Positions 2,398 to 44,158 of a stretch of 51,622 nucleotides of DNA are shown here, piece after piece (the first letter of the stretch is position 1; each line of letters opens with the position of its first letter). The translations under genes were made by a program, and so were the position numbers. Origin of the DNA: Psychrobacillus soli (GTDB lineage Bacteria > Bacillota > Bacilli > Bacillales_A > Planococcaceae); NCBI RefSeq assembly GCF_006861775.1, contig NZ_VDGG01000027.1, forward strand, positions 1-51,622, given 5' to 3'. The notes below the pieces were generated by a model. It had not been told where the DNA came from. It made no database searches and saw only the letters and a program-made list of their open reading frames with translations.

Positions 2398-2398
2398 T

Positions 2399-2443
2399 AA
2401 TAAGTCGTTCTAGTTCAATTAACTGGAATGGCTTATTTTTTTC
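2399..2443 (+). terminator. Rho-independent terminator
   Basis: Arms at 2399-2415 and 2421-2437 pair over 17 bp (three G-U pairs) around a 5-nt loop and are followed by a T run. It lies 3' of the gene stub at 2359-2397 and isolates the S-layer-like gene from IS66. Confidence 0.7.
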
Positions 2444-28207: not shown

Positions 28208-28267
28208 AAAAAGCGTCTCTCTGCAAGAAGTAATTCCAAGCTATTCTGACAACTAACTATAATTTAT
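28208..28267 (+). repeat. Dispersed intergenic repeat, copy A (diverged)
   Basis: AAAAAGCGTCTCTCTGCAAG...CTATTCTGACAACTAACTATAATTT aligns with the core CGCGTCCCTGTGTTAG...CTATTCTGACAATTTACT of copies B and C. It lies between neuB and galE and ends in a TATAAT that could be the galE -10. No trailing hairpin is seen. Confidence 0.5.
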
Positions 28268-28304
28268 GTTTGATACTGACACTTAATGAAATGGAGGTCA
28301 TCTA

Positions 28305-29336
28305 GTGAATATTCTAGTAACAGGTGGTGCAGGATATATTGGCTCACATACATGTGTAGCTTTGCTAGAGGCTGGCCATTCTGTGATTATTGCAGATAAT
28401 TTATGTAATAGTAGGCGTGAGGCTGTTGAGATAGTTAAGCAAATTGTAGATAAAGAAGTTACCTTTCGTGAGATTGATGTAACGGATGCTGAAGCAGTTG
28501 ATACTTTATTTAAGTCTCACAAGATTGATGGCGTCATTCATTTTGCGGGTTTGAAAGCAGTGGGTGAGTCTGTAGAGAAACCAGATGCTTATTATTTTAA
28601 TAATCTTGTCAGTACTATAATTGTTGCCAAGGCTTGTTTAAAGTATGGTGTTGAGCGATTTGTGTTTAGTTCATCGGCAACCGTGTATGGGGATAATACG
28701 GTACCGTTTATGGAGACAATGGATTTATTACCTACGACGAATCCCTATGGTGAAACGAAAGCAATGTGCGAACGAATATTAACTGATATTGCAAAAGTGA
28801 ATCCGGGTTTTGGTGTTTCACTACTCCGGTATTTTAATCCAGTAGGTGCTCATGAAAGTGGCTTAATCGGTGAAGCACCTAATGGGATTCCAAATAACTT
28901 AATGCCTTATATTACACAAGTGGCAACAGGTAAGCTTTCGAAGTTGAGAGTGTTTGGTGATGATTATCATACTGTGGATGGCACGGGAGTACGTGATTAT
29001 ATTCATGTCGTTGATGTGGCTGAAGGACATGTAGCGGCCCTAGATCATCTAAAAGAAGGTTTACATATTTATAATCTTGGTACGGGTCGAGGAACGAGTG
29101 TACTAGAGTTAGTACATGCTTTCGAAGAAGCGAATGATATTGAAGTACCTTATGATATTGTGGAGCGACGTTCTGGTGATATTGCTTCTTGTTACGCGGA
29201 TGTTTCAAAGGCAGAGCGAGAGTTAGGGTGGGGAGCTAAGCGTGATATTGTGGAGATGTGTCGTGATGCTTGGCGGTTTGAGACGAATTATAGACAGAAA
29301 GAAGAACTTAATAAAACTGTAAAGAGTTCTATCTAG
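28305..29336 (+). CDS. galE: UDP-glucose 4-epimerase
   Basis: 343 residues; interconverts UDP-glucose and UDP-galactose (or the HexNAc forms). NAD-binding VTGGAGYIGSHT at the start, FAGLKAVGES, SSSATVYG with Tyr-x-x-x-Lys at NPYGETKAM, RYFNPVGAHESG and GVRDYIHVVD are all canonical GalE. GTG start at 28305 after GGAGG. It closes the polysaccharide locus and is followed by a terminator. Codon use is less AT-rich than in the glycosyltransferase core. Confidence 0.95.
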   Translation: MNILVTGGAGYIGSHTCVALLEAGHSVIIADNLCNSRREAVEIVKQIVDKEVTFREIDVTDAEAVDTLFKSHKIDGVIHFAGLKAVGESVEKPDAYYFNNLVSTIIVAKACLKYGVERFVFSSSATVYGDNTVPFMETMDLLPTTNPYGETKAMCERILTDIAKVNPGFGVSLLRYFNPVGAHESGLIGEAPNGIPNNLMPYITQVATGKLSKLRVFGDDYHTVDGTGVRDYIHVVDVAEGHVAALDHLKEGLHIYNLGTGRGTSVLELVHAFEEANDIEVPYDIVERRSGDIASCYADVSKAERELGWGAKRDIVEMCRDAWRFETNYRQKEELNKTVKSSI

Positions 29337-29400
29337 GGCATTGAATCTTAATTTTTGGTTTAAGGTGCTAGTTATTTACACAAATCGCTTTAAGAAAGAT

Positions 29401-29443
29401 AAGCTCATTCATAGTTTGACTGAATACTATGAATGGGCTTTCC
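29401..29443 (+). terminator. Rho-independent terminator of the polysaccharide locus
   Basis: AAGCTCATTCATAGT (29401-29415) pairs with ACTATGAATGGGCTT (29426-29440), 15 bp with one G-T pair and a 10-nt loop, followed by TTCCTT. Confidence 0.75.
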
Positions 29444-29600
29444 TTGCGGAAATGAATTTTTTTGTCTTTAATTGACTAAATATTCGTTTCATTTAACTGG
29501 AATGCTAGAATCCGACTCAGCCCCCAATCAAACAACGCATATAAATCACGTAGCACCTCCTGGTACGATACATGTATCAATCTAAGGAGATGCTTTTTTT

Positions 29601-29795
29601 ATGCCACATCAAAAATTAACAATCGTCCCCGTTAAGCTTCATCCAGTTAGTGAAAATTCTTTACCGTTTACTCCCTTGGACTCCCTTTTCCCGAGCATTT
29701 GCACGATTAAAACGGCACATGCAGAAATTTCCTTCTATAGTGGCGTAGATGAACGCATCATCCAAACCGTTATGAGGGAGTTGAGACATCTATGA
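29601..29795 (+). pseudogene. tnpA: IS66 tnpA remnant
   Basis: 64 residues. The second half (AEISFYSGVDERIIQTVMRELRHL-type ending) is like the C-terminal end of IS66 TnpA. The HTH half is absent, so this is a shortened or reduced TnpA. Its stop overlaps the start of the tnpB fragment. Confidence 0.55.
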
Positions 29796-29917
29796 AACAG
29801 GATTATACAAGCGTGAAAAACATCTGCATCGTTTTTGGAAAAACGGATATGCGAAAAGGAATTGATGGATTAGCCACACTAATCCAGGATTCTTTTAAAA
29901 ACGCGTCCCTGTGTTAG
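29792..29917 (+). pseudogene. tnpB: IS66 tnpB N-terminal fragment
   Basis: 41 codons reading MKQDYTSVKNICIVFGKTDM and continuing RKGIDGLATLIQDSFK. This matches the TnpB signature ([12 protein letters not shown] in the element at 127-2358). At SFK the frame enters the CGCGTCCCTGTGTTAG repeat and stops. The remaining two thirds of the gene are missing. Confidence 0.8.
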
Positions 29918-29948
29918 GAACTATTCTGACAATTTACTACAATTCACT
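29897..29948 (+). repeat. Dispersed intergenic repeat, copy B
   Basis: AAACGCGTCCCTGTGTTAG followed by GAACTATTCTGACAATTTAC and TRCAATTCAC. It is almost identical to copy C over about 50 bp. It joins the broken tnpB at its 5' side; the hairpin found in copies C and G is absent here. Confidence 0.8.
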
Positions 29949-30104
29949 ATTAAACAGTAATTAGTAATCATATGTAAGCAAAGGAAAAGCAGTCGAAATT
30001 GAAATCTTGTGCTTCATTTTTTGGGCGATGGTCAATCGAAAGCCCAGTAGTAGTCGGACAGCGAGACCCGAAAAACTCGCCCCTACAATGTGTTAGAAAC
30101 AAAT

Positions 30105-30181
30105 GAAAAAAAGCGAGGTATTCGAGGATTGAATCGTCGAATACCTTGATAAGTTAAACTATCTGGACTTTTTCAGTGCCC
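30105..30181 (-). mobile_element. Remnant end of an IS (IS1182-like), inverted relative to 51498
   Basis: The complement of this stretch starts GGGCACTGAAAAAGTCCAGA and continues through a hairpin region. It matches 51498-51574 with scattered differences. The outer tip faces right (30181); the body would extend left but is gone. The internal hairpin is degenerate here, so this is an old fragment. The family name is a tentative inference. Confidence 0.6.
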
Positions 30182-30198
30182 TCGGCTTAATAGGATAA

Positions 30199-30558
30199 TT
30201 ACTGAAAATCTCTTTCTAGTTGACTTAACCACTCTTCTAACATTCGATATCCAAAGCTTCATAGTTACTGGATAATAGCTTGAATGCACATAATAAATCA
30301 TCTCCTAATTTGAGATGGACACCGCCTCGTAATCTATTTCTAACTCTGATTTTGTTTCTGTTTTCTTTTTGAGATTCGTTTCACAGCATCTTCGGATTTC
30401 TTCGCATTGGTTTCAACTCTTTTTTCAAGTTGTTTCAGTGTGATTGTCGGCATGTGCTCATCACCTTTTTTCCGTTTTTTCATATCCTCAGACCCCATGT
30501 TCTTTTTGTAGACAGTATATGTATCTTGTAGTTTTATTTTCTGAAAACAATTTTCCAA
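30199..30558 (-). pseudogene. Decayed gene of unknown family
   Basis: Minus-strand fragments in different frames look like one broken small gene. A basic lysine-rich start (MPTITLKQLEKRVETNAKK, with AAGGTGA upstream) is followed by LRGGVHLKLGDDLLCAFKLL and, after a further shift, MLEEWLSQLERDFQ. A frame change and a stop separate each part. It abuts the IS end at 30181. No family recognised. Confidence 0.35.
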
Positions 30559-30664
30559 CTATGCAATGTCGTGTACGAGGTTCTCGAACAATTCAGAATT
30601 CAATATGAAGCTGGTACCTTTCGCCATAGCATGAACAATTTTGATCAATATATATGTCAAATTT

Positions 30665-30707
30665 ATCATCAGAAAAGTGTACAGTGCACTTTTACTGATG
30701 ATTTTTT
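30665..30707 (+). terminator. Orphan terminator-like hairpin
   Basis: ATCATCAGAAAAGTG pairs with CACTTTTACTGATGAT (one bulge) and is followed by TTTTTT. No + strand gene ends nearby; it may be left from a deleted gene. Confidence 0.6.
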
Positions 30708-30749
30708 GTTTTATATATTCAGAATAAAAGGAATTATATAAAAATAATA

Positions 30750-30778
30750 TTGAACTGGGATACAGTATGTCATATAAT
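30750..30778 (+). promoter_or_regulatory. Sigma-A promoter with possible operator, GntR-TRAP operon
   Basis: TTGAAC (30750-30755) and TATAAT (30773-30778) are spaced exactly 17 bp. ATACAGTAT at 30760-30768 in the spacer is a perfect inverted repeat around a central A. It is a plausible binding site for the GntR/FCD regulator that follows, whose start is 20 nt past the -10. Confidence 0.7.
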
Positions 30779-30798
30779 TAAAAAAAGGAGATAATGTT

Positions 30799-31494
30799 AT
30801 GAAAATATTAGATAATCCACTCATAAGAGAAAGCGCTTTCAATCAATTACGTAAAATGATCCTTTCGCAAGAAATAAAGCCGGGGGAAAAGCTAAATGAA
30901 AAGGAGGTGGCTGAACAGTTAGGTGTAAGTAGAACTCCTGTTAGAGAAGCGTTACATAAGTTGGAGTTAGAAGGTCTCGTTGAAATTTTTCCCAGAAGAT
31001 ATTGTCTTGTTAAAGGCGTAACACATGAGTGTATAAGAGAAATTCATTTAATAAGGTCACAATTAGAGCCAATTGCTGCATCCATCGCGGTGAATAACCT
31101 GACGAATGAAGATTTGGAACGTCTGGATAACCTGATAAAACTTTCGGTGGAATTTGCATCTAAGGGTAATGTAGAAAAGATCATGGAAGCAAATGATGAA
31201 TTTCACCAGATTATTAATAGAGCATCCAATCTATCAAGAATCATAGCAATTCTTGAAAACATGCATGATTATGTTGAGGCATTCAGGTATTCATTTATGT
31301 CACGAACTGATTTGGTCAAGAGATCGATTGAAGAGCACCAAGAAATTTTGGCTGCATTGCAGACAAGAGATAAAGAATTAGTCAAAAAAATTGTAACCAA
31401 GCATTTGGAAGGCATTACTGAATACGAGGAAGTCATTTTGGAAGATATGAAACAATCACTGAAAGTCTTTGACGATGAGCTTCATAATAAATAG
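30799..31494 (+). CDS. GntR-family regulator, FadR/FCD subfamily
   Basis: 231 residues. The N-terminal winged HTH (about 10-75) has LRKMILSQEIKPGEKLNEKE and LGVSRTPVREALHKLELEGL. A helical FCD ligand-binding domain follows, with an acidic/His metal site suggested by EANDEFHQII and EEHQEI. Such regulators usually repress a neighbouring uptake operon until the substrate or a metabolite binds. It is followed after 17 nt by the TRAP genes, so it is likely autoregulated with them. Confidence 0.9.
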   Translation: MKILDNPLIRESAFNQLRKMILSQEIKPGEKLNEKEVAEQLGVSRTPVREALHKLELEGLVEIFPRRYCLVKGVTHECIREIHLIRSQLEPIAASIAVNNLTNEDLERLDNLIKLSVEFASKGNVEKIMEANDEFHQIINRASNLSRIIAILENMHDYVEAFRYSFMSRTDLVKRSIEEHQEILAALQTRDKELVKKIVTKHLEGITEYEEVILEDMKQSLKVFDDELHNK

Positions 31495-31511
31495 GTAAGG
31501 GAGTAGATAAT

Positions 31512-32531
31512 ATGAAAAAGAAGAGTATAAGTTTGCTAGTTCTTATTCTATTTTTAAGTAGTATTTTGTTGAGTGCCTGTAGTGAAGACAGTAAAGCATC
31601 AGGTGGTAGTAAAAGCATAACAACCTTAAGTTTTGCCTATGAGTTGCCAGACGACCACCCTTGGGGAGAAGGAGCTAAAAAGTTCAAGGAAGTCGTTGAA
31701 GAAAAAACAAATGGTGAAGTGAAAATTGAAATATACGGTAACGGTTCACTGGCTGGTTCAGGTAGAGAAATTCAAGAAGGAGCCAAAATTGGAACAATAG
31801 ATATCGGCATATCATCTACACCAATGTCCTTGATGAATCCGTACCAAGATCTATTTTCACTGCCATATATTTTTAGTAGCCGAGAAAATGCTTGGGAAGT
31901 GCTCGATGGACCAATCGGGGATAAGGTAGGTGAAAAGTTAAGCGCTCATAATTTGACCCATCTAGCATATTGGGAAGATGGATTCAGACAAATTACCAAT
32001 AGTACCCGTCCAATCACGAAAATCGAGGACTTTAAGGGATTAAGGATTCGTGTGCCGGAAAGTGAAGTTAGAATAGAATCTTTTAAAGCATTAGGTTCTA
32101 GTCCACTTCCAATGGCATGGTCTGAAGTGTTTACAGCCCTTCAACAAGGAACCATTGATGGACAGGAAAATCCGTTGTCTGTTATCAATAGCTCATCCTT
32201 TTATGATGTACAAAAATACTTAACCATTTCAAACCATGTGTATTCACCTGCCACATTGTTTATCAATACTTCGAAATGGGATTCATTAAGTAAGGAACAG
32301 AAGGAAATCGTATTAGAGGCGGCTAAAGCAGGTAGGGATTTAAATCGTCAGTTGAATGAAGAACAAGACTCTGAATTGGTAAAAGGACTTGAAGAAAAAG
32401 GGATGGAAGTTACAGTGATTGACGAGAATAAGCCATTCCAAGAAGCTACAAAGTCCGTGTGGGAAAGTGTAGTAAATGACATTGGCGGTGATGCACAGGA
32501 AATCGTTGATGAAATAAATAAGTCACAGTAA
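31512..32531 (+). CDS. dctP: TRAP transporter substrate-binding lipoprotein (DctP)
   Basis: 339 residues. Lipoprotein signal with lipobox LLSAC (Cys23). The DctP domain shows FAYELPDDHPWGEGAKKF, the IRVPESEVRIESFKALG block carrying the carboxylate-binding Arg, PMAWSEVFTALQQGTIDGQENP and QKYLTISNHVYSP. It captures an organic anion outside the membrane and delivers it to the DctQM pair encoded next. The pairing with a proline-racemase-family enzyme hints at a hydroxyproline-like or other cyclic amino acid. Confidence 0.93.
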   Translation: MKKKSISLLVLILFLSSILLSACSEDSKASGGSKSITTLSFAYELPDDHPWGEGAKKFKEVVEEKTNGEVKIEIYGNGSLAGSGREIQEGAKIGTIDIGISSTPMSLMNPYQDLFSLPYIFSSRENAWEVLDGPIGDKVGEKLSAHNLTHLAYWEDGFRQITNSTRPITKIEDFKGLRIRVPESEVRIESFKALGSSPLPMAWSEVFTALQQGTIDGQENPLSVINSSSFYDVQKYLTISNHVYSPATLFINTSKWDSLSKEQKEIVLEAAKAGRDLNRQLNEEQDSELVKGLEEKGMEVTVIDENKPFQEATKSVWESVVNDIGGDAQEIVDEINKSQ

Positions 32532-32545
32532 AAGGTTGAGATTAA

Positions 32546-33058
32546 ATGGAGAAAATTAGGACTTTCATTCATTCAACTATTAAGCGTTTAAATATTTCAG
32601 TCATATTTTTAATGTTTTTGGTTTTAATTATTCAAGTTATAACAAGAAAATTATTTAATGATCCATTACCATGGCCAGAAGAATTGTCATTAATCGCAAT
32701 GATTTGGATTACCTTTTTTGGAGCGTATCAATGCACAATTGAAGAAAATCATCTGAAAATGGATTTCTTACAAAGCAAAATTTCTGAAAAGATGAAGCCT
32801 TTTTTATCCATTGTTGCAAAAGGATTCGTCGTTTGGTTTTTAATTGTCACCTGTTATATGGGATTTTCGTTTATTCAGCAAGCAGGAAATATTAAAATGC
32901 CGGTTTCAGGACTCCCTATGTGGATTCCATATTGGATTATTTGGTCCAGTTTCTTTCTAATGCTGATTGAATTTATTGCCCAAATTATTTTGCATATTAG
33001 GGAAATAGTCAGTCCGTCAAAGCAAAAAGGGGGGGATGAAGAATGCTCCCAATCTTGA
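32546..33058 (+). CDS. dctQ: TRAP transporter small permease (DctQ)
   Basis: 170 residues with four membrane segments (about 15-35, 48-68, 87-110 and 126-150). The DctQ motif PLPWPEELSLIAMIWITFFGA is clear. It forms the membrane complex with DctM and overlaps that gene by 16 nt. Confidence 0.9.
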   Translation: MEKIRTFIHSTIKRLNISVIFLMFLVLIIQVITRKLFNDPLPWPEELSLIAMIWITFFGAYQCTIEENHLKMDFLQSKISEKMKPFLSIVAKGFVVWFLIVTCYMGFSFIQQAGNIKMPVSGLPMWIPYWIIWSSFFLMLIEFIAQIILHIREIVSPSKQKGGDEECSQS

Positions 33059-34323
33059 TGCTCTTGGTTATACTAGTTCTTCTAGCAATTGGGGTGCCTA
33101 TTGCATTCACTTTAGGAATCACAGCTACAGTTTTCTTAATCATATATGCGGATATTCCGATGGTTGTAATTATTCAACAACTTTATTTGGGTACAAACAG
33201 TTTTCCTTTGTTGGCAATTCCGTTATTCATGTTAGCGGGATCATTAATGAACTATGGAGGTATTTCTGTACGTCTTATCAATTTTGCCCTATCCATTATA
33301 GGGATGGTAAAAGGCGGTTTAGGCATGGTCAATGTGGTGGCATCTGTATTTTTCGGAGCCATAACTGGAACTTCAGCAGGTGCTAGTGCTGCTGTAGGTC
33401 AAATCATGATACCTGCAATGAAGGAAAAGGGGTATTCTGCGAGCTTTTCAGCAGCCGTCACCTCTGCTGGTTCATCGCTCGGAATCATCATACCGCCTAG
33501 TGTGCCGATGATTCTTTACGGATCGATATCGGGGCTTTCGGTAGCAACCTTATTTTTTGCGGGAATCCCGATAGGTATTGGCATAGCAATTGGTTTTATG
33601 ATTGTTGTATATATTATTTCTGTCAAAAAGAAATATGATTTTAAAGAACAACCATTCTCTTGGAGACTAGTACTTAAAACGTTTGTTAGCGCAGTGCCGG
33701 CTCTTTTAGTACCAGTCGCAATTATGGGTGGAATTGTAACAGGATTCGCTACACCAACCGAGTCTGCTGCAATTGCCGTTATTTGCGGCATCATTGCAGG
33801 AATTATTTATAAACAGTTAACCTGGAGCGGATTTAAGAAGGCGTTGAATGAAAGCGTCGTGAATACAGCACTGGTAATGTTAATTGTTGCGACAGCCAAA
33901 ATTCTAGGCTTCTCATTTTCAGCACTTGGAATCGGAAGAATGATAATGGAACCGTTAATGGCATATGCTGAAAACCCTATTATCTTGATGCTTTTGGCAA
34001 GTTTGATTCTATTTATTGGAGGTTTCATATTTGACGGTACCGTAATGGTTCTAGTAATCGTGCCATTGTTTCTCCCATTGGTTGAAGCTACCGCGATTGA
34101 TCCCCTACAATTTGCAATGGTAGTCATAATTGTTTGGGCAATCGGTCAGCAAACGCCACCAGTAGCAAGCGGACTTTACATAACAACCGCTATTGCACAA
34201 GTAAGTATGCTTCAAGTAAGCAGATACAATATTTGGTTTATATTAGTGTTCTTTGTGGCTTTAATGGGGATGATTTTCATTCCTGATGTCATGCTTTATA
34301 TTCCAAGAATTATTATTCCATAA
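33043..34323 (+). CDS. dctM: TRAP transporter large permease (DctM)
   Basis: 426 residues, about 12 membrane segments; the Na+-coupled transport subunit. Typical DctM blocks: GVPIAFTLGIT, AIPLFMLAGSLMNYGGIS, FFGAITGTSAGASAAVG, IIIPPSVPMILYG, TESAAIAVI and the late IWAIGQQTPPVASGLYI. It overlaps dctQ and has a GGGGGG-rich ribosome site inside that gene. Confidence 0.93.
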   Translation: MLPILMLLVILVLLAIGVPIAFTLGITATVFLIIYADIPMVVIIQQLYLGTNSFPLLAIPLFMLAGSLMNYGGISVRLINFALSIIGMVKGGLGMVNVVASVFFGAITGTSAGASAAVGQIMIPAMKEKGYSASFSAAVTSAGSSLGIIIPPSVPMILYGSISGLSVATLFFAGIPIGIGIAIGFMIVVYIISVKKKYDFKEQPFSWRLVLKTFVSAVPALLVPVAIMGGIVTGFATPTESAAIAVICGIIAGIIYKQLTWSGFKKALNESVVNTALVMLIVATAKILGFSFSALGIGRMIMEPLMAYAENPIILMLLASLILFIGGFIFDGTVMVLVIVPLFLPLVEATAIDPLQFAMVVIIVWAIGQQTPPVASGLYITTAIAQVSMLQVSRYNIWFILVFFVALMGMIFIPDVMLYIPRIIIP

Positions 34324-34349
34324 TATAACGAGAAGAGGAGAATGAAAAA

Positions 34350-35360
34350 ATGAACTTTACAAACGTTATTCAAACTATTGAGACACACACATTCGGGGAA
34401 CCGACTAGAGTTATAAACGGAGGATTATTGAAATTAAAAGGTAACACAGTAGCAGAACAGCGTGATTATATGAACGAGCACTATCAGTGGTTCCGCAATT
34501 CTCTTATCCAGGAGCCAAGAGGCCACCGAGATATGTTCGGGGCAGTTCTTTTACCGCCATTACAAGAAGGGGTCGATTTTGGGGTTATTTATATGGATAA
34601 TGCGAATTTTTTGAATATGTGTGGACATGCGACAATTGGTGTAGCTACTGCAATTGTAGAAACTGGGCTTGTTCCAATTACGGGTGAAGTAACAGAGCTA
34701 GTCTTAGAGACTCCCGCTGGACTTGTGTATCCACGAGTGAAAGTTGAAAATGGAAGAGTTTCATCAGTCACCTTTAAAAATGTTCCTGGATTCCTTGAGA
34801 AAAGAGATGTAGTAATTAACGCAGGTGAACTAGGAGAAATCAAAGTGGACATTAGCTTTGGTGGGAATTATTTTGCTTGGGTAGACATTGAACAACTGAA
34901 TGAAATTATTCATGTTTCGAATGGTTCAAAACTGAAAGCAATGGCAAAAGTTATTAAAGAAGAAGTCAATAAAGTAGTAAAGGTTCAACATCCTACAAAG
35001 CCTTATATTAATCACATTGATATCGTCACTTTTTACGGTAAACCATCCATTTACCCTGAAGCGACGTATAAAAACGTTCATATATTCAGTGAAAATCAAG
35101 CGGATCGCTCACCAGGCGGTACAGGAACAACAGCTATGGTTTCAAGAATGGTAGGTAGAGGAGAACTTGAAATTGGTGAAGAAGTTATTTGCGAAGGATT
35201 TGTAGGTGGCAGATTCTACGGGAAAGCCATCGAAAAAACACAGCTTGGAGACAAAGAAGCATATGTAACAGAGGTTACAGGCTCTGCTTTTATTACAGGA
35301 TTCAGTAACATACTAATAGATCCAAATGATCCATTCAAACATGGCTTTATGGTTGACTAA
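34350..35360 (+). CDS. Proline racemase-family enzyme with Cys/Gly active site
   Basis: 336 residues, PLP-independent proline racemase/hydroxyproline epimerase superfamily. The first catalytic Cys is present in NMCGHATIG (Cys91). The second half-site reads DRSPGGTGTTA, with Gly256 (GGC at 35115-35117) where racemases and epimerases have Cys and trans-3-hydroxy-L-proline dehydratases have Thr. With only one acid/base thiol, two-base racemisation is unlikely; a dehydratase or other single-base reaction is more plausible. It is the last gene of the GntR-TRAP operon, so its substrate is probably what the transporter brings in. A strong GAGGAG site precedes the ATG. Confidence 0.88.
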   Translation: MNFTNVIQTIETHTFGEPTRVINGGLLKLKGNTVAEQRDYMNEHYQWFRNSLIQEPRGHRDMFGAVLLPPLQEGVDFGVIYMDNANFLNMCGHATIGVATAIVETGLVPITGEVTELVLETPAGLVYPRVKVENGRVSSVTFKNVPGFLEKRDVVINAGELGEIKVDISFGGNYFAWVDIEQLNEIIHVSNGSKLKAMAKVIKEEVNKVVKVQHPTKPYINHIDIVTFYGKPSIYPEATYKNVHIFSENQADRSPGGTGTTAMVSRMVGRGELEIGEEVICEGFVGGRFYGKAIEKTQLGDKEAYVTEVTGSAFITGFSNILIDPNDPFKHGFMVD

Positions 35361-35364
35361 TATC

Positions 35365-35470
35365 AAAACGCGTCCCTGTGTTATGAACTATTCTGACAAT
35401 TTACTGCAATTCACTTGAAAAAGGCAAGCATGAAATAACGCCCACTTAATTAACAAGTGGGCGTTACTTT
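35365..35470 (+). repeat. Dispersed intergenic repeat, copy C, with hairpin
   Basis: AAAACGCGTCCCTGTGTTAT followed by GAACTATTCTGACAATTTAC, then about 25 nt, then a hairpin: TAACGCCCACTT (35436-35447) with AAGTGGGCGTTA (35455-35466). It begins 4 nt after the racemase-family stop. The hairpin lies at the same distance from the core as in copy G and may also end the operon transcript. Confidence 0.8.
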
Positions 35471-35510
35471 GCGTTGAAACAAATAATTCATAACTTTATT
35501 TACTTTCTTT

Positions 35511-35532
35511 AAAATCGCGTCCCTGTGTTAGA
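35511..35532 (+). repeat. Dispersed intergenic repeat, copy D (5' core only)
   Basis: AAAATCGCGTCCCTGTGTTA matches the first 18-20 bp of copies B and C. It then stops and is joined directly to the 5'-truncated permease fragment at 35539. Confidence 0.7.
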
Positions 35533-35538
35533 AATTTA

Positions 35539-35856: not shown

Positions 35857-35881
35857 TTAGGATACGACTCGGACTAGCGTA

Positions 35882-35975
35882 GTGTCACGTCGCTTTGTTA
35901 GAAGCAATTCTATACTAATCTGATAATCAACTAGAATTTATAGAGAAAAGTTAACCATGCAATTATTAGTGGTTT
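35882..35975 (+). repeat. Dispersed intergenic repeat, copy E (diverged)
   Basis: CACGTCGCTTTGTTAGAAGC and TAATCTGATAATCAACTAGA align with the core and with copy A. A weak hairpin (AACCA/TGGTT with flanking A/T) follows at about the expected distance. The rest of the gap 35857-36190 shows no gene. Confidence 0.45.
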
Positions 35976-36190
35976 TCTATCTGTCGTAAAGTTTCCAATA
36001 AATAGCACATGCATCACTCTCTCATGTTCTAATTCTGTTCAAGTCCTTTTGATGTCAAATATTTTAATAAATTTATAGATTGCGACTAATTTCGATATTA
36101 TATTTAATGAGTCTTTGTTACAATAACTGGAGATTCTATTATTTATTAATGGATATAACATGTTGTGAAAAACATAGGAGGTATTGTTGC

Positions 36191-36340
36191 ATGACAACGG
36201 CAGAATTACAAGAAGAATTCAAGCGCATTTTAGAATATGGCTATCTTCGAGGTAATGAGAATGATTCGATTAAAACGGATGATATTATTAGAGAGTTATC
36301 CGAGCAGCTGAGAAACTTGCTGGATAAGAATAAAGTTTAA
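36191..36340 (+). CDS. Small hypothetical protein
   Basis: 49 codons with an excellent ribosome site (ATAGGAGG, 8-9 nt before the ATG). The product is charged and helical (TTAELQEEFKRILEYGY...IIRELSEQLRNLL). No family recognised. Codon use and composition look like a real gene, but it is isolated within decayed sequence. Confidence 0.5.
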   Translation: MTTAELQEEFKRILEYGYLRGNENDSIKTDDIIRELSEQLRNLLDKNKV

Positions 36341-36616
36341 TAAGGATGAAATAGAAGAACTAAATCAAGAATGTGTTATAAGATAAAACTTTTAGAAATA
36401 GTGATATCAATGTGTTTAAACCTAAAAGATGGTGGGCGGAAAAGTCTAAACCGGATATTACGTTTAGAGAAGTTGGATTTGTAAGATGTTAAAAACGTGT
36501 ACTTTTTAGTGCAGTCGCTATTTTATGGACAATATAAAATTATCCATTAGCTAGCTGAATTTTTTAACTTGAAGTAACCTGTAGGAGTAAAAAGCCCCAG
36601 TCTTTTTGACAAGGAT
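36341..36616. other. Gene-poor stretch with a possible coding remnant
   Basis: No intact gene is seen. At 36412-36492 one frame reads FKPKRWWAEKSKPDITFREV and ends in GFVRC and a stop, which looks like a protein tail but cannot be assigned. The remainder is AT-rich with stops in all frames. Confidence 0.3.
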
Positions 36617-36745
36617 TTACTTTAAAATATGTGATGTATAAGAGAAAATCTTGCGATAGCTATCGCCATTCATGTGAATTATCTCCACACGATGTAAAAG
36701 ACGTTCAAAAAATCGCGGTAGTGATTTAACAGGTATCTGTGTAAA
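36617..36745 (-). pseudogene. istB: istB C-terminal remnant, IS21 family
   Basis: On the minus strand the frame reads IPVKSLPRFFERLLHRVEII and then HMNGDSYR, close to the istB tail at 2-70 (HRVEVIHMEGDSYR), and stops at 36617-36619. The upstream part of the gene is missing at about 36745, where repeat copy F begins. Confidence 0.7.
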
Positions 36746-36822
36746 AAACTATTCGGATTATGTACTGCAATTTCCAATAAATTTATTGGAATCCTCAACT
36801 AAGAAAGTGTTGGATTCTTTTT
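36730..36822 (+). repeat. Dispersed intergenic repeat, copy F, with hairpin
   Basis: GTATCTGTGTAAAAAACTAT and TCGGATTATGTACTGCAATT align with copies B and C. A hairpin, GAATCCTCAAC (36789-36799) with GTTGGATTC (36809-36817), then TTTTT, follows at the spacing seen in copies C and G. Confidence 0.55.
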
Positions 36823-36881
36823 GTATAAAGATGAAATGTTTAAGTTGTCCTAAATATAAGGATGCCACTCACCTTAGGCAT

Positions 36882-36930
36882 AAAAAAAAGCAAGCTTCGA
36901 AATCACATGACTTCGAAGCTTGCTTTTTTT
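36882..36930. terminator. Terminator overlapping the end of the LysR gene
   Basis: A perfect 19-bp stem (36883-36901 with 36912-36930, including GCAAGCTTCGAA) and a 10-nt loop, with A/T runs on both sides so it can act in either direction. The right arm encodes the last residues (KKASFE) of the LysR protein. Confidence 0.8.
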
Positions 36931-37829
36931 AAGATAGAGTCCTTTTCTTTTAGATAATGTTTCATCGTATGGATAAACGTGTTTGTAATGGGTGTGGTAG
37001 TGTTTTTGTTCCAGGTAATGTACAAATCCATTTCTTGCGGGCTACCTTTTAAAGGTTTATAGACAACACCTTTTTTGGGATATTCTTGCTTGGCGGCTTC
37101 CGTCACGAGCGTTACGCCGATTCCTGCGGAAACTAGTGAAAGGATATGGGTAACTCCTTCAGCTTCCTGATAGATCACAGGGCTCATACCTCCGTTTAGG
37201 CATATAGAAATAATCATGTCATAATAGCCGGGTTCCAATCTCCGAGGTGCCATAATAAACGGTTCATTCTTTAATTCTTTGATTTCAATAGGTCCTGACC
37301 TGGAAGCTAAAGGATGATTTATTGGTAAAGCCGCCACAAACCGAGCGCTGTATATATGCTGAAAACCTAAAGAAGGATTGGTGATAGGCGGACAGAGAAA
37401 TCCGAAATGGATTTCTTTATTAGTAAGGGCCTTTAATTGATCTGTGCTTGACATAGGATGCAAAGTCACTTTGACGTCGGGATAGCTTTCGCGATGCAGG
37501 TTGATTATCTGAATCAGGTATGAGTTCAAGGAGCCAGTAAAAGCAACTTTCAAGGTTCCAGCCTCTCCCATGTATATTTTTTGAGTATCCTCCACGCTTG
37601 ATTTGACTTTTGCGAGTATTTCATAAACTTCCTCTAAAAAATACTTGCCCGCCTGCGTTAACTGGACTGATCGGTTTGTTCGTTGAAAAAGTTTGACGCC
37701 CATTTCTTTTTCCAAGTGAATGATCTGCTGGCTAAGAGGTGGTTGGCTAATATTCAAGCGGTTCGCTGCTTTTCCGAAATGCAGTTCTTCTGCCACTGCT
37801 ACAAAGTAATGAAAATGTCGAAGTTCCAT
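36903..37829 (-). CDS. LysR-family transcriptional regulator
   Basis: 308 residues. N-terminal winged HTH: MELRHFHYFVAVAEELHFGK, then AANRLNISQPPLSQQIIHLE. The effector domain is of the usual length, with VAFTGSLNSYLIQI and a VSAGIGVTLVTEA hinge. Transcribed divergently from the acyl-CoA synthetase operon with 155 bp between the starts, so it most likely activates that operon in response to the imported acid or a CoA intermediate. GAGGAGG ribosome site. Confidence 0.93.
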   Translation of the reverse strand: MELRHFHYFVAVAEELHFGKAANRLNISQPPLSQQIIHLEKEMGVKLFQRTNRSVQLTQAGKYFLEEVYEILAKVKSSVEDTQKIYMGEAGTLKVAFTGSLNSYLIQIINLHRESYPDVKVTLHPMSSTDQLKALTNKEIHFGFLCPPITNPSLGFQHIYSARFVAALPINHPLASRSGPIEIKELKNEPFIMAPRRLEPGYYDMIISICLNGGMSPVIYQEAEGVTHILSLVSAGIGVTLVTEAAKQEYPKKGVVYKPLKGSPQEMDLYITWNKNTTTPITNTFIHTMKHYLKEKDSILKKASFEVM

Positions 37830-37984
37830 TACAATTCCTCCTCAAATGGATTAAGACGTTAAAGATCTCAATCGGTTTCTTTTATATATTAGACTAAATT
37901 AAGTTCCGTTGATAGTATTTTCTTAATAATTAGATTAATTTGAAATAATGAAAGAAAGCGCATTCATAAAATGGAGGATTAGAT

Positions 37985-39550
37985 ATGAATTTAACTTCAC
38001 TTGTATTAAATGAACTGGTTAAAAACAGTTTAAAGAATAATGCTGGCAAAAAAGCACTGCATGTCAACGGGTCTAGTTTTACTTATAAAGAATTGCATAC
38101 TGCTGCGAACCATACGGCACAGGCTTTAAGAAAAAAAGGTATTGTTCAACAATCACGCGTCGCATTATTACTTCCCAATTGTTACGAGTATGTGGTAAGT
38201 GAAATAGCGATTTATTATCTAGGAGCGACGAAAATCGCTCTTAACTCGATGGTCAGTGAATCGGATGTCCGCTATATCCTAGAAGATGCAGAAGCGGAGT
38301 TATTAATCGTAGAAAATCGCTTCCTGCCAATGATTAAAAAAATTAAATCTCAGTTGCCCAAACTCCATACGGTTATCGTGCTCGGTGCAGAAGAGACTGA
38401 GTTCGATGAATTGATATGTTGGGAAGATTTTCAAGAGGGTGGTTCAGATGAAGAAGTTTATGTTAAAAGTGCGCCATCAGATTTTTCTTTTATCTTATAT
38501 ACGGGTGGAACCACAGGCAAGCCAAAAGGTGTCGTTCATACCTATGAAACTACTAGCTTGACGTTCATCTCAATCATCATCGAAGCGAATATTCAAAGCG
38601 ATGAGAAAATTCTTGTGACTACTCCTTTGCCTCATGCAGCTGGCCTGTATTTGTTTGCTGGATTAATAAAAGGTGCTGAAATCTTTATTGAAGACAAGTT
38701 TGAAATAGAAACGGTGGTTAGGCATATTGAAGAAAACCGTATCACTTACTTGAGCTTGGTGCCAACAATTTTATACAGAATGCTAGATTACTTAGAACGA
38801 AAAGAGGTGGACGTTACTTCGATCCGGACAATTCAATACGGAACAGCTCCTATAACTGCTGAGCGCTTGAAACAAGGCTTGTCAATTTTCGGACAGGTGT
38901 TTTTACAAATTTATGGACTGACAGAAACACAAAGTGCAGCAACTTGGATGAAGAAAGAGTTTCATAGTATCGAAGAAGGATCCTTACATTTATTGAAGAG
39001 CTGTGGAAGGTCTACGATTTTCTCTCAAGTAAAAGTTGTAGATGCCAACGGAAAGGAAGTTGCTGTTGGTATGGAAGGAGAGGTTGTGGTAAAGGCGTTT
39101 ACAAATATGATTTGCTACCTTAATCAGCCAGAAAAGACAGCGGAGGCACTGAAAGACGGTTGGCTGTACACGGGAGACATTGGCACGATGGACGAACAGG
39201 GATTCCTGTATCTTCTCGACAGAGCCAAAGATATGATTATCAGCGGAGGAATGAACGTTTATTCGTCAGAAGTCGAAAATGTTATTCAAGAACATCCTGG
39301 AGTAGGACAGGTGGCGGTTATAGGCGTGCCTGATCCCGACTGGGGAGAAGCCGTCACAGCATTTTTAACAACGAAAGTTGAAAACTTGGAAATTGCCGAA
39401 GTAATGGCTATTTGCAAATCGAAACTTTCTAAATATAAGAACCCAAAAGAGATTCATATTGTAGAAGCTCTTCCGTTGACGTCTTACGGAAAAGTAGACA
39501 AGAAAAAGCTGCGTGAACCTTTTTGGGAATTGGCTGAACGACAAATTTGA
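37985..39550 (+). CDS. Acyl-CoA synthetase (AMP-forming)
   Basis: 521 residues, ANL superfamily; activates a carboxylic acid to its CoA thioester using ATP. Motifs: FILYTGGTTGKPKGVVHTY (P-loop-like A3, about 165-183), IYGLTETQS (A5), DGWLYTGDIG (A7), DRAKDMIISGGMNVYSSEVE (A8) and the catalytic Lys in TSYGKVDKKKL (A10). The substrate pocket cannot be read reliably; a benzoate-, cyclohexane- or carnitine-like acid brought in by the TRAP transporter downstream is possible. First gene of the LysR-linked operon. Confidence 0.92.
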   Translation: MNLTSLVLNELVKNSLKNNAGKKALHVNGSSFTYKELHTAANHTAQALRKKGIVQQSRVALLLPNCYEYVVSEIAIYYLGATKIALNSMVSESDVRYILEDAEAELLIVENRFLPMIKKIKSQLPKLHTVIVLGAEETEFDELICWEDFQEGGSDEEVYVKSAPSDFSFILYTGGTTGKPKGVVHTYETTSLTFISIIIEANIQSDEKILVTTPLPHAAGLYLFAGLIKGAEIFIEDKFEIETVVRHIEENRITYLSLVPTILYRMLDYLERKEVDVTSIRTIQYGTAPITAERLKQGLSIFGQVFLQIYGLTETQSAATWMKKEFHSIEEGSLHLLKSCGRSTIFSQVKVVDANGKEVAVGMEGEVVVKAFTNMICYLNQPEKTAEALKDGWLYTGDIGTMDEQGFLYLLDRAKDMIISGGMNVYSSEVENVIQEHPGVGQVAVIGVPDPDWGEAVTAFLTTKVENLEIAEVMAICKSKLSKYKNPKEIHIVEALPLTSYGKVDKKKLREPFWELAERQI

Positions 39551-39580
39551 CAGCATGATAGAGAGAAAGGAGTGCGCTAT

Positions 39581-40366
39581 ATGAAGAAGTATGAAACCTT
39601 GATTGTCGAATATGTAGAACCAACACTTTCTATTACATTTAACCGTCTCGACAAAGCAAATGCGATGAACTATCAAATGGATCAAGAATTAAATGAATTA
39701 ATTTCAGAAGTCAGTTCAGATAAAAAATATAAATTTATTATTTTCACAGGAGCAGGAAAGGTTTTTTCGGCGGGAGCAGATATCAAAGAAGTTGGAAAAA
39801 GTATAGAAGAAAATGAGGAAGATTCTTCTTGGATACGAAAAGATCAAATTAGCCGACAGGAATTTCTAAGAAAGTTAGATGCTCTTGACCAAATTACCAT
39901 CGCCGCTATCAATGGACCCGCTTTCGGCGCCGGACTGGCCCTTGCGATGTCTTGCGATTTTCGAATCATTGCCGACGATGCGACACTGAGCTTGCCTGAG
40001 ATTGACCGGGGTATGTTTTTTTCCGGAGGGGGAACCCCACGTTTAGTGAATTTGATTGGTGCTTCGAAAGCGAAAGAGCTTATCATGCTAGGCGATATCA
40101 TTACGGCAAAAGAAGCGAAAGATATTGGGTTGGTAACGAAAGTGGTGGCAAGGGAAGAACTTTCCACTACGGTGGATGAGTTCCTAAAGAAACTAATAAA
40201 GAAGCCATTTGATCCTTTACGAATTACCAAGAAAATCGTCCATGCCTCTGTTCCAAGATTTGAAAATCTGCTCTATTATGAAGCAGAATTGCAAGAGCAA
40301 ATGCTGCTTGGGGGCGGAACGCTTGAAAAGATAAAGGAGTTTGTCGGTAAGACAAAAGAAGGCTGA
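39581..40366 (+). CDS. Enoyl-CoA hydratase/isomerase family protein
   Basis: 261 residues, crotonase fold. Oxyanion-hole segment GKVFSAGADIKEVG and the second loop GPAFGAGLALAMSCDFRIIA are present, with a catalytic-type Glu in LPEIDRGMFFSGGG. It hydrates or otherwise processes the enoyl-CoA formed from the product of the preceding ligase. The ATG at 39581 fits AAAGGAG; the GTG at 39572 lies too close to that site. Confidence 0.9.
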   Translation: MKKYETLIVEYVEPTLSITFNRLDKANAMNYQMDQELNELISEVSSDKKYKFIIFTGAGKVFSAGADIKEVGKSIEENEEDSSWIRKDQISRQEFLRKLDALDQITIAAINGPAFGAGLALAMSCDFRIIADDATLSLPEIDRGMFFSGGGTPRLVNLIGASKAKELIMLGDIITAKEAKDIGLVTKVVAREELSTTVDEFLKKLIKKPFDPLRITKKIVHASVPRFENLLYYEAELQEQMLLGGGTLEKIKEFVGKTKEG

Positions 40367-40430
40367 ATAGAAGAATGAATTTGGAAGGTTTACGTAGCCA
40401 GCTAGATAAGATGAAAAGGGGATGAGTCGT

Positions 40431-41492
40431 ATGAAGAAAAGAAAAATGGTGAAATGGTCCTTATTAGCGGGAGTTACATTGTTGTTGACAGCCTGCGGTA
40501 GCGGTGAAGCGACAAATAAAGATAGCGTATACGAACTGAGTTTTAATATCCAAGTACCATCGACTCACAAATTCCATACGGAAGTAGTGGAGCCCTGGGC
40601 AAAGCTTGTCGAGGAAGAGACAGAAGGAAAAGTGAAAGTGAATATTTATAATAGTGGAGCCCTTGGAACCTTGAGTACAGCTTACGAAGATATACAGGGG
40701 GGCGTTTACGATATTGGATATGTTAGTCCGAGCTTGCATCCAGATACAGAGTTATTCCCATTATCAATCGGAGACTTGCCTTTTGGAATATCGGATCCAT
40801 TCGACAGCACAGCTGTCTTGAAGCCTTTTATGGAAAAGTATATGGCTGAGTCTCTCGAAGAAGTGATTCCGGTCGGGATATCTGGGACTGATTCATACCA
40901 GTTATATAGTGAAGATCCTGTTGAAACGATTCATGACGTGAAAAACAAAAAAATCATTGCTTCTGGTTACCAACGTGTAGATTTAATTGAATTATGGGGA
41001 GGGGTTCCGGTTTCCTTGGGGCTAGAAGAAATCTATACTTCGCTCGACCGTAATACCGTAAACCAAGCTACTTACACATCGATTGGTGCAGTGGGATTGA
41101 AATTATATGAAGTGTCTCCTTACCTAACAAAAATCGATATGGGAAATACGGCACTTCTTTTCTTAATGAACAAAAATTCGTTTAAATCTCTACCAGCAGA
41201 TCTTCAAAAACTGTTTGAAGATGAACTAGGACCGAAATTCGAAACTATGAACAGTGAGTTGTACAGCAGTGCATCAGAAAATGCGATAAATGAATTTGAT
41301 AAAGCCGTGTCAGAAGACGGTGGACGTGTTATTACTCTAAGTGAAAAAGATCTGCAGTCATTTAAAGAGCCTGCGAAGGTAGTTTGGGATGATTGGGTTA
41401 AACTAGCGAATGATAAAGGATTTGATGGCCAAGAAATGATGGACTTCTTTACGAAGACCTTAGAAGAAGAAGGGTTGACTCTACCTTATTAA
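40431..41492 (+). CDS. dctP: TRAP transporter substrate-binding lipoprotein (second DctP)
   Basis: 353 residues. Lipobox LLTAC (Cys22). DctP-type start FNIQVPSTHKFHTEVVEPWA and the ELWGGVPVSLGLEEIYTSLD block. It diverges strongly from the DctP at 31512, and the Arg-containing ligand segment reads KKIIASGYQRVDLIELWGG, suggesting a different ligand. The ATG at 40431 is 9 nt after AAAAGGGG; the ATG at 40422 touches that site. Confidence 0.9.
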   Translation: MKKRKMVKWSLLAGVTLLLTACGSGEATNKDSVYELSFNIQVPSTHKFHTEVVEPWAKLVEEETEGKVKVNIYNSGALGTLSTAYEDIQGGVYDIGYVSPSLHPDTELFPLSIGDLPFGISDPFDSTAVLKPFMEKYMAESLEEVIPVGISGTDSYQLYSEDPVETIHDVKNKKIIASGYQRVDLIELWGGVPVSLGLEEIYTSLDRNTVNQATYTSIGAVGLKLYEVSPYLTKIDMGNTALLFLMNKNSFKSLPADLQKLFEDELGPKFETMNSELYSSASENAINEFDKAVSEDGGRVITLSEKDLQSFKEPAKVVWDDWVKLANDKGFDGQEMMDFFTKTLEEEGLTLPY

Positions 41493-41518
41493 TCTCTTAT
41501 GTGAAAGTAGGTGGAAAT

Positions 41519-42004
41519 GTGAAGTATTTTACTTGGATTGTTAGAACTATAACCAATTTGACGAAATGGATTTCGTTTTTCATGTTAATCATTTTGGTTC
41601 CATTAGTAACATTTTTTTCAATATCTCGGAGCTTTGGCGTTCCAATTCTCGGCGATATCGAACTCGTTCAATTTAGTATGGTTGTTTTAATTATGGGTTC
41701 GTTAGCATATACCGAAGCAACGAATTCTCATATCTCCATTGGACTACTGGTTGATAAGTTCCCTGCTAAAGTACAAATTGTATTGGATTTTATAGCCCAA
41801 CTTTGTACAATCGTCTTTGCCTTTATCGTTTGTTGGGCTTTCACTACAAAAATAAATTTGACGCAAATGTCCGATATGCTAAATATTTCGTTTGTGCCTT
41901 TTAAAATTTTCTTAGTGATTTGCTTTATCGGCTGGGCACTGGAAGCTCTATTGAAATTTATAGGAATTGTGGCGAATTACAGGACAGCTGAGAAAAGTGA
42001 GTAA
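41519..42004 (+). CDS. dctQ: TRAP transporter small permease (second DctQ)
   Basis: 161 residues, four membrane segments, with DIELVQFSMVVLIMGSLAYT and a following NSHISIGLL as in DctQ proteins. GTG at 41519 with AGGTGG in front; a longer reading from GTG 41501 lacks a site. Works with the DctM encoded next. Confidence 0.87.
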   Translation: MKYFTWIVRTITNLTKWISFFMLIILVPLVTFFSISRSFGVPILGDIELVQFSMVVLIMGSLAYTEATNSHISIGLLVDKFPAKVQIVLDFIAQLCTIVFAFIVCWAFTTKINLTQMSDMLNISFVPFKIFLVICFIGWALEALLKFIGIVANYRTAEKSE

Positions 42005-42019
42005 AGTGAGGGGAAGACT

Positions 42020-43327
42020 TTGTCTAATGAAATGATAGGCGTTTTAGTTATTATTACAGTGTTTGTACTTATGTTTTTACGTGTTCCCATCGCCATCTCG
42101 ATGGTTATACCAGCAAGCATCGGAATCATCTACCTCAAAGGGTGGGATACATTATTAACTGCTATCAATAGTGTGGTTTGGAGCCAGAGCTACCATTATA
42201 CGTTAAGTACAATCCCGCTATTTGTGCTAATGGGACAATTGTTATTTTATTCAGGAGTTACAGATGATTTGTTTAAAACCTTTAAGAACTGGTTTGGTAA
42301 CATGAAAGGCGGTCTAGGGATTGCTACAATTGGAGCTTCGGCAATGTTTGCGACTGCTTCTGGATCTAGTGTAGCGACTACTGGTACGATGGGCGTTATT
42401 GCCACAAAGGAAATGCTGAAGGCTGGATATAGCAAAAGCTTAACTGGTGGTTCTATTGTAGCCGGAGGGGCATTGGGAATTCTGATTCCGCCAAGTACAA
42501 CCTTCATCATCTATGGAATGATCACCGAGCAATCCGTGGGGAAATTGTTGGCAGCTGGAATCGTACCTGGAATTATCCTGACTTTATTTTTTATGCTGAC
42601 GATTTATATTTGTATCTTGATTAAACCGAGTTTGATCTCAGCTCCTACTAATTACGTAGTGAGCTGGAAAGAGCGATTTTCTTCATTAAGCTCAAATATT
42701 TGGATTATTTCATTATTCCTCTTAGTGATGGGCGGTATTTACCTAGGATATTTTACTGCCACTGAATCTGCAGGAGTAGGTGCATTCGGCGCATTTATCA
42801 TTGGTATAGTTCGCCGCCGTTTAACCTTAGAGAATTTTAAAGATGCCGTTATGGGGACTTTAAGAACAACAGGATTTCTATTTGCGATTGTATTAGGGGC
42901 TTTCATCCTTAATTATGTCCTTGTTTTGACGAGAGTTCCTAATTTGCTGGCAGAATTCTTCATAACATCGAATTTATCCACCACGACAATTTTCATCTTA
43001 ATCGTCTGCCTCTTCATCTTGCTCGGAGCGATTATGGATTCCCTGGCGATGATGGTTGTTACTATACCAATCTTGTTACCGATCCTAGAAATTCAGAACT
43101 TTGACTTAGTATGGTTCGGCGTCATAATCGTATTAGTGGTGGAACTCGCTTTAATCTCACCTCCTATTGGTATGAATGTATTTGTCTTAAAGGGGGTAAC
43201 GAATGAATTGGAACTTGTTGATATTTTCAAAGGAGCTGTGATTTTTATCATTCCGATTCTTGCCCTCGTCACGCTTCTTTATATTTTTCCAGATATCGCG
43301 ATGTTCTTACCAAATTCGATGGACTAG
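42020..43327 (+). CDS. dctM: TRAP transporter large permease (second DctM)
   Basis: 435 residues, about 12 membrane segments. Conserved DctM blocks: RVPIAISMVIPASIG, TIPLFVLMGQLLFYSG, GILIPPSTTFIIYG, ATESAGVGAFGAF and the late LISPPIGMNVFVLKG. TTG start 6 nt after GAGGGG. Completes the second DctPQM system. Confidence 0.92.
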   Translation: MSNEMIGVLVIITVFVLMFLRVPIAISMVIPASIGIIYLKGWDTLLTAINSVVWSQSYHYTLSTIPLFVLMGQLLFYSGVTDDLFKTFKNWFGNMKGGLGIATIGASAMFATASGSSVATTGTMGVIATKEMLKAGYSKSLTGGSIVAGGALGILIPPSTTFIIYGMITEQSVGKLLAAGIVPGIILTLFFMLTIYICILIKPSLISAPTNYVVSWKERFSSLSSNIWIISLFLLVMGGIYLGYFTATESAGVGAFGAFIIGIVRRRLTLENFKDAVMGTLRTTGFLFAIVLGAFILNYVLVLTRVPNLLAEFFITSNLSTTTIFILIVCLFILLGAIMDSLAMMVVTIPILLPILEIQNFDLVWFGVIIVLVVELALISPPIGMNVFVLKGVTNELELVDIFKGAVIFIIPILALVTLLYIFPDIAMFLPNSMD

Positions 43328-43365
43328 GCAATTAAAATAAAAAAACAGAATGGAGAATACTAAAT

Positions 43366-44034
43366 ATGAACCTAACAGAAAACAAAAACCTATACGAGAA
43401 AAATAACTTCGCTCGCCTTCCTGAATTTGGAAAGATTGCTCCAGAAGTATTTAAAGCTTTTGTCCAATTTGATAAGATTGCACTGAAGGAAAAAGCACTA
43501 TCCGCAAAACTGAAGGAGCTGATCGCGGTAGCGGTAGCACATACAACCGGTTGCCCGTACTGCATTGACCTTCATGTCAAAAATGTCAAAAAGCTTAATG
43601 CCACAAAAGAAGAAATGGCCGAGAGCATAATGGTGGCGACCGCTTTAAAAGCTGGCTCAGCCCTGGCCCATGGGGTCAATGCCTTAAATGCATATGACGA
43701 AACAGCGGATGAAGAACTCTATAAAGAAGTTTACTTTAACCGCCTATCGGAATTCTCAAAGCTTAACGGAGAAGTATTCAGCGCTTTCATCAACTTCGAT
43801 ACTTTATCGCTAAAAGAAGGACTCTTATCAGTGAAAGAAAAAGAACTAATTGCAATCGCTGTTGCTCATACCACTGGCTGCCCATACTGCATCGCTTTGC
43901 ACGTGAAAGCCGCAAAGAAAAAAGGAGCTACTAAAGAAGAAGTGGCCGAATCTATCTTTGTTGCCACAGCCTTAAAAGCTGGCTCAGCTTTAGCCCATGG
44001 GGTCAATGCTTTGAATGCATTTGATGAAGTTTGA
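43366..44034 (+). CDS. Tandem-duplicated AhpD-like (carboxymuconolactone decarboxylase fold) protein
   Basis: 222 residues made of two very similar halves (about 1-111 and 112-222). Each contains AHTTGCPYCI with the redox CxxC pair (Cys63/66 and Cys172/175) and a following His (70 and 179), then VATALKAGSALAHGVNALNA. Single-domain AhpD-like proteins are usually about 110-150 residues and assemble as oligomers, so this is an internal fusion of two subunits. The likely role is peroxidase or disulphide chemistry, or a decarboxylase-type step. It is last in the LysR-linked operon. Confidence 0.88.
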   Translation: MNLTENKNLYEKNNFARLPEFGKIAPEVFKAFVQFDKIALKEKALSAKLKELIAVAVAHTTGCPYCIDLHVKNVKKLNATKEEMAESIMVATALKAGSALAHGVNALNAYDETADEELYKEVYFNRLSEFSKLNGEVFSAFINFDTLSLKEGLLSVKEKELIAIAVAHTTGCPYCIALHVKAAKKKGATKEEVAESIFVATALKAGSALAHGVNALNAFDEV

Positions 44035-44050
44035 GATAGATAATCTAATG

Positions 44051-44158
44051 GAAACGCGTCCCGGCGTTAGGGGAGATTACACTCTATTATGACAATTAAT
44101 TATTGAAAAGTAAGTGGTAAATAACACCCACCTGATGAAAAGGTGGGTGTTATTTTGT
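44051..44158 (+). repeat. Dispersed intergenic repeat, copy G, with hairpin
   Basis: GAAACGCGTCCCGGCGTTAG, then ACTCTATTATGACAATTAAT, then a perfect 15-bp hairpin: AAATAACACCCACCT (44119-44133) with its complement (44141-44155) and TTG. It starts 17 nt after the stop of the tandem AhpD-like gene. Core-to-hairpin distance equals that of copy C. Confidence 0.75.

Follow-up and report, generated by a model that had tools for sequence, protein, structure and literature searches.

Copies of a strand-biased repeat unit in Psychrobacillus soli as probable solo ends of a RAYT-type element

Copies of the unit in the Psychrobacillus soli window

We analysed a stretch of 51,622 nucleotides from Psychrobacillus soli (NCBI RefSeq assembly GCF_006861775.1, contig NZ_VDGG01000027.1), here called the window, in which a short directional sequence recurs on the forward strand between positions 28208 and 44157. 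This sequence, which we call the unit, is a candidate end of a small element of the RAYT type (tyrosine transposases associated with repetitive extragenic palindromes, REPs, or terminal inverted repeats, TIRs). A sequence-only reading of the window had proposed a seven-copy dispersed element (copies A to G), built as one unit of about 105 nt. The core CGCGTCCCTGTGTTAG has five matches at <=3 mismatches where 0.04 are expected, and ACTATTCTGACAATTTACT has three, also against 0.04 expected.

The copies were scored with a 71-nt model of the unit (R1), made from 27 copies with no RAYT locus among them. Five of these 27 come from the window, so that their own matches, A at 28208, B at 29898, C at 35365, E at 35886 and G at 44052, each at E<=6e-11, are partly matches by construction. 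A first profile had 14 seeds, of which the window supplied B, C and G only; it found the non-seed copies A (E=3e-8) and E (4e-6), and F at 0.26 only. Copies A, B, C, E and G are thus clear members of the family, D retains the core only and F is weak, and neither of the latter two is a row of R1.

The unit is complete, with core, middle and hairpin, in copies C and G. Copy C (35365..35472) begins 5 nt past a proline-racemase-family gene and is matched by R1 at 35365-35421 (49.1 bits) and by the first profile at 35366-35472 (85 bits); its hairpin (35436..35466) has TAACGCCCAC arms, a 12-bp stem and a weak T run. Copy G (44051..44157) begins 17 nt past a CMD-family gene, with 38.3 bits from R1 at 44052-44103 and 69 bits from the first profile, and its hairpin (44120..44154) has AATAACACCCACC arms and a T-rich tail. 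Both hairpins are real, AATAAC starting 51 nt after the TTA of the core in each, and the 110-nt units C and G fold with z-scores of -2.8 and -4.7, respectively. Core and middle make up copies A (28208..28271; 52.0 bits; beginning 59 nt past a NeuB-family gene), B (29898..29955; 59.4 bits; directly 3' of a truncated frame that by eye is IS66 TnpB-like) and E (35886..35949; 49.9 bits). The related hairpin was not found in these three, and A and B fold no better than shuffled sequences. Copy D (35513..35534; 17.6 bits, E=1.7e-4) is a 22-nt core, directly after which an FtsX-type permease fragment starts. Copy F (36736..36783; 17.8 bits, E=1.4e-4), mostly middle, adjoins a fragment that by eye is IstB-like; the different hairpin with a T run described for it is present, with an ordinary fold (z -1.5). 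The single unit of about 105 nt is therefore borne out, and it recurs elsewhere, but within the window it is complete in C and G only.

Searches of Rfam over 28-44.5 kb gave a snoRNA below threshold as the sole match. The unit had no match in plasmid sequences, and in phage sequences the only match was one 24-nt stretch in two records of a single Pantoea phage. A scan of genome contigs with a single 15-mer returned 56 stretches from many phyla, mostly single and chance-like, three of them in Psychrobacillus records. Two other features lie among the copies. An 83-nt repeat at 30101-30185, perhaps an insertion sequence (IS) end, recurs in this genome at least six more times, in part at the ends of contigs. 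A small frame of ~49 aa (36192-36342) lies in a segment (~36038-36366) that is also present in G010 (twice), G011, G013, G016, G006 and G002, in several cases behind a unit.

Anatomy, spread and orientation of the unit

Across genomes the unit is a directional sequence of ~70 nt, reading approximately AAAA-GCGTCCCTGTGTTAG-AAACAATTCTACACTATTCTGACAATTGACTACAATTCACTATTAAAT, in a family whose length is ~70-110 bases. At least ~12 nt of the middle are missing from 6 of the 27 aligned copies, as if deleted between both ATTCT repeats. Other genomes also have complete copies, in which core, middle and hairpin are all present. In the Psychrobacillus regions examined, 16 of 77 units (score>=18) carry a hairpin whose arms are AAC...GTT (AATAAC-type) and form 9 or more of 12 pairs; its AAC stands 63-90 nt downstream of the start of the unit. 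Position 6 of the arm covaries in these 16 units (GC 6, AT 7, CG 1, GT 1, mismatch 1, a count that includes one orthologous pair, G016 and G006), and judged from the aligned arms the pair changes are compensatory. In other copies a different hairpin lies near this position, and some of these hairpins recur. A half type of the unit is not a short palindrome; palindromic forms occur elsewhere. In G059 (genus g7) most units are of one longer form with another hairpin at the end, and GmrSD_N, DUF4839 and DUF7669 proteins are found as cargo between the units of its array (L241/L242). Two further sequences were seen: a CCCACTAGCGTTGCA-like motif shortly before or near some cores (L184:14500-14650 area in G005, L110 near 7711 on the minus strand, G011_C31 and G013_C5), and a distinct repeat of ~145 nt (L167:6092-6237) with dozens of copies across G018 and G001.

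R1 matches at E<=0.01 are present in 17 of 19 Psychrobacillus genomes, at 0-28 per genome, and P. soli has 21; of the 18 listed for it, C32 has 6, the contig of the window 5, and four further contigs 7 between them. Under stricter filters, matches at E<=1e-5 occur in 28 of 121 genomes and 6 of 19 genera of the family. The matches gather in five genomes with long contigs (for which 52 of 58 matches were listed): among the matches listed, the richest 80-kb interval contains 18 of 23 in G010, 11 of 11 in G008, 10 of 10 in G004, 4 of 4 in G015 and 4 of 4 in G012, against random means of 1.2-2.9.

The units have a strong strand bias. In regions chosen for holding several matches, each turned to positive GC skew before counting, 58 of 60 units (score>=25) in Psychrobacillus lie on the leading strand, as do all 44 units (score>=18) from ten genomes of other genera. 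Three listed matches of G010 at 2.97-3.02 Mb are all on the minus strand, and the stretch measured there has negative skew. The upstream gene is on the plus strand for 56 of 69 units, and 638 of 763 open reading frames in the same regions are on that strand; since the 13 units behind a minus-strand gene keep to the leading strand, orientation does not follow from the neighbouring gene. Of the units behind a plus-strand gene, 24 of 54 start at <=25 nt from the stop codon, where random placement in the same gaps gives 6.9 on average and at most 15 in 2000 placements.

Association with one clade of RAYT genes

We then compared the units with genes matching PF01797, of which 27 loci were collected in Psychrobacillus and 20 in other genera, from 18 genomes selected because they contain units. 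At E<=0.001, R1 finds a unit at 5 of the 27 Psychrobacillus loci (L128, L129, L133, L138, L152) and at 9 of the 20 from other genera (L261, L264, L265, L268, L269, L270, L272, L274, L275). In a RAYT tree of 41 rows (L135, L151, L153, L259, L260 and L273 being outside it), all 14 unit-flanked loci fall in one clade of 18 rows (support 100/98), although the placement of L272, a long branch, is unsure. At the same threshold no unit lies beside the 23 other tree rows or the 6 unplaced loci, the strongest of these 29 being L127 (E=0.016). The clade loci score above the PF01797 cut-off and thus carry a Y1_Tnp (HUH) transposase gene. Some RAYTs outside this clade have a different upstream palindrome, around TTACTGGTGCCTGGCACCAGTAA (L130, L131, L136, L145), or one related to that type (L134, L146).

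Five loci of the clade were dissected. In G009a, G014a and G007c (where the RAYT frame is a pseudogene) the unit stands upstream of the RAYT frame and is followed by a hairpin with a T run, the sequence being CCCTGTGTAGCAAACAATTCTGA-like, then ACTAYAMT, hairpin and T run. Downstream, G009a and G014a carry the inverted unit end TGTCAGAATAGTTTCYTACACAGGGACAT, and so have inverted terminal repeats; a simple inverted downstream end was not seen in G007c, G012a or G006a. A solo copy of the RAYT-borne layout is also present in G009.

These features recall several known systems. In Di Nocera 2013 (PMC3733652), TIR-associated tyrosine transposases (TIRYTs) are RAYT-like genes with TIRs, accompanied by moderately abundant solo repeats; Quentin et al. 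(PMC6006769) place most TIRYTs in subclass 2.1, which has a C-terminal helix-turn-helix (HTH) and beside which they found no REP-like sequences. Like a TIRYT/TIRtron, the present system has a Y1/HUH gene between inverted repeats, and solo repeats of this kind form a moderately abundant family. It differs in that the upstream end is an asymmetric unit with hairpin and T run, that the solo copies stand in one-way arrays, and that the GGGGWSAS motif of PMC3733652 is only approximated by AGGGACGC (6 of 8 letters by eye). With REP/RAYT systems (REPtrons) it shares repeats that are tied to one RAYT clade, intergenic and often behind genes, but copies are few here (0-28 per genome, E<=0.01) and the half type is not a short palindrome. 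REPs carry a GTAG/GTGG foot; GTTAG or GTAAG is the usual sequence of solo units here and GTAGC that of the three RAYT-borne upstream ends, its role as a hairpin foot being putative. As in the CGTC-tagged REPs of PMC3733652, CGTC opens the core and some forms are palindromic; those REPs are described there with stems of 8-9 bp, a loop of 4-5 and no transposase link, whereas the unit is long and stands beside a RAYT clade.

A further likeness to REPs is interruption by an IS at one point; some IS target REPs (PMC1525189). An element that by eye is IS3-like, with ends TGTAGTCTAGCCCC / GGGGGTCGACCA, is found mostly in G010 and is inserted at one point of the core (L156:8252, L157:16726-18043, L158:6298-7615, L176 on the minus strand, L117:4623, L248:107). 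The point is the same for 4 of 4 left ends (three after GTCCC, one after GTTAC) and clearly so for 4 of 6 right ends.

From association and anatomy we infer that the unit is a RAYT/TIRYT-type variant, and we estimate a probability of about three in four that the copies in the window derive from a small element of this type, as solo ends that are mostly decayed. Under the mechanism that we propose, a HUH/Y1 enzyme of the clade would have recognised the ends as folded single strands; by moving or copying them on the lagging-strand template while the DNA replicated, it would have left the units in one orientation relative to the fork. They would have been retained mainly within variable regions, in long intergenic gaps and often just past stop codons, where they may also aid transcript ending. 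RAYTs are related to the IS200/IS605 enzymes, whose activity is on the lagging-strand template (PMC6006769). Lagging-strand action could yield the one-way orientation; the gathering in one region stays outside this explanation.

Several observations weigh against a RAYT-type origin. Four of the 18 clade loci have no unit at the threshold (L262, E=0.03; L263, L266 and L267, none), and the NCBIfam RAYT model NF047646 scores 69 and 77 bits on two tested proteins, below its cut-off of 80. The only PF01797 match of P. soli belongs to another clade, so that the P. soli copies would be fossils or depend on an enzyme supplied in trans; in G059 no PF01797 match accompanies the 12 units. Because clade RAYTs often sit in unit-rich regions (e.g. 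G009, G012, G014, G142), the link between unit and RAYT may in part be one of location. Two weaker copies in G011_C31a (25.5 and 23.1 bits) oppose the skew; this region is outside the 60-unit set, and including its first copy gives 58 of 61. The matches of G011 and of P. soli are more scattered over contigs than those of the five clustered genomes. Finally, no clean empty-site allele was found among the pairs compared, the best indel (G008/G004) keeping the core on both sides.

The idea of a small mobile repeat is supported as regards the unit, which recurs complete and, upstream of a RAYT in three loci, in the same order of parts; its mobility is putative. The further statement of the sequence-only reading, that none of the ordinary features explains the repeat, fails, as the unit resembles RAYT/TIRYT-linked repeats, a known kind. 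As for the unit being the known end of a named IS, it resembles the end of a RAYT element, but no named element was found (ISfinder was not searched).

Alternative explanations and meaning of the association

The alternative that survives best, though an improbable one, is that units are attC-like sites bounding exchangeable gene or operon modules, shuffled by the RAYT/HUH enzyme or by an unknown recombinase. Integron attC sites have the boxes RYYYAAC and GTTRRRY, which were not seen in the unit consensus by eye. The arrays do recall a chromosomal integron, in that sites of one orientation stand behind genes and the cargo is accessory. The orientation is uniform in arrays whose cargo changes, G010, G011 and G013 have common modules with different neighbours, and 3 of 10 scanned cargo proteins of G059 match candidate defence models of PADLOC. 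Blocks of homology end at -20..+20 of the unit start 21 times, against 0.7 in shifted controls, and resume at +100..+200 in 39 cases against 6.9, in histograms that carry confounds from gap length and coding ends. However, synteny does not break at units more often than at gap-matched controls. A first synteny test looked strong (7/59 against 136/276) with controls unmatched for gap length, and matching removed the effect: 8 of 38 pairs are continuous at unit-capped gene ends, against 22 of 98 at unit-free ends with gaps >=300 (p=1), 53 of 162 with gaps >=200 (p=0.18) and 122 of 299 with gaps >=60 (p=0.02 by pairs, 0.22 by sites). Unlike in an integron, there is no tyrosine-recombinase (integrase, PF00589) match within the arrays among the matches listed; serine recombinases were not searched. 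The regions are variable as a whole. It is equally doubtful that Psychrobacillus and at least two related genera practise integrase-free gene capture, with modules in one-way arrays bounded by HUH transposase sites; if they did, metabolic operons and candidate defence genes would be the modules, and an HUH single-strand transposase would cut them out and insert them on the lagging-strand template.

Slightly less probable still is a vertically inherited, non-mobile 3' UTR (untranslated region) or terminator motif of operons, which would account for the placement behind stop codons and for the recurrent hairpin. Against it, the leading-strand orientation is kept even with an opposite upstream gene, and a gene that G011 shares at 93% identity has behind it there a similar core, the sequence being otherwise different. 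Of 70 units, 31 are followed by a terminator-like hairpin (window +35..185), and the other strand has as many. Unit-free gene ends have such hairpins no less often (73 of 136, window 0..185; p=0.24), and random intergenic points have them less often (51 of 194; p=0.007). The proposal of an RNA ending in a terminator, or of a mobile terminator, accordingly finds no enrichment over ordinary gene ends in its favour.

That the unit is the end of a resident ordinary IS (IS66, IS21 or IS3) is very improbable, for although copies B and F touch the IS66-like and IstB-like fragments and IS3-like copies lie inside units, 16 loci around IS-like repeats (including two 2473-nt copies, 100% identical) yielded no significant match to the unit (best E=4.6), GTAAGCGTC is the left end (read by eye) of the single IS66 transposase match in this genome, and the IS3-like element, which ends in sequences of its own, is itself inserted into the unit. 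IS-like loci and IS66 were rejected as sources of the unit on these grounds. At the start of the window (1-2400, minus strand) an IS66 transposase frame passes into other sequence near the contig end.

Most reports of tagged REPs concern Proteobacteria (PMC3733652). In the open-access literature searched, RAYTs, REP sequences and Firmicutes were not found treated together, nothing relevant was found on palindromic repeats of Psychrobacillus, and six 13-nt core strings were absent from the full texts. Here loci of five Gram-positive genera combine one repeat family, whose strand bias is strong, with one RAYT clade. This pairing offers a natural test of the spread of RAYT repeats on the lagging-strand template, and the same system offers a test of what RAYT repeats do behind genes.

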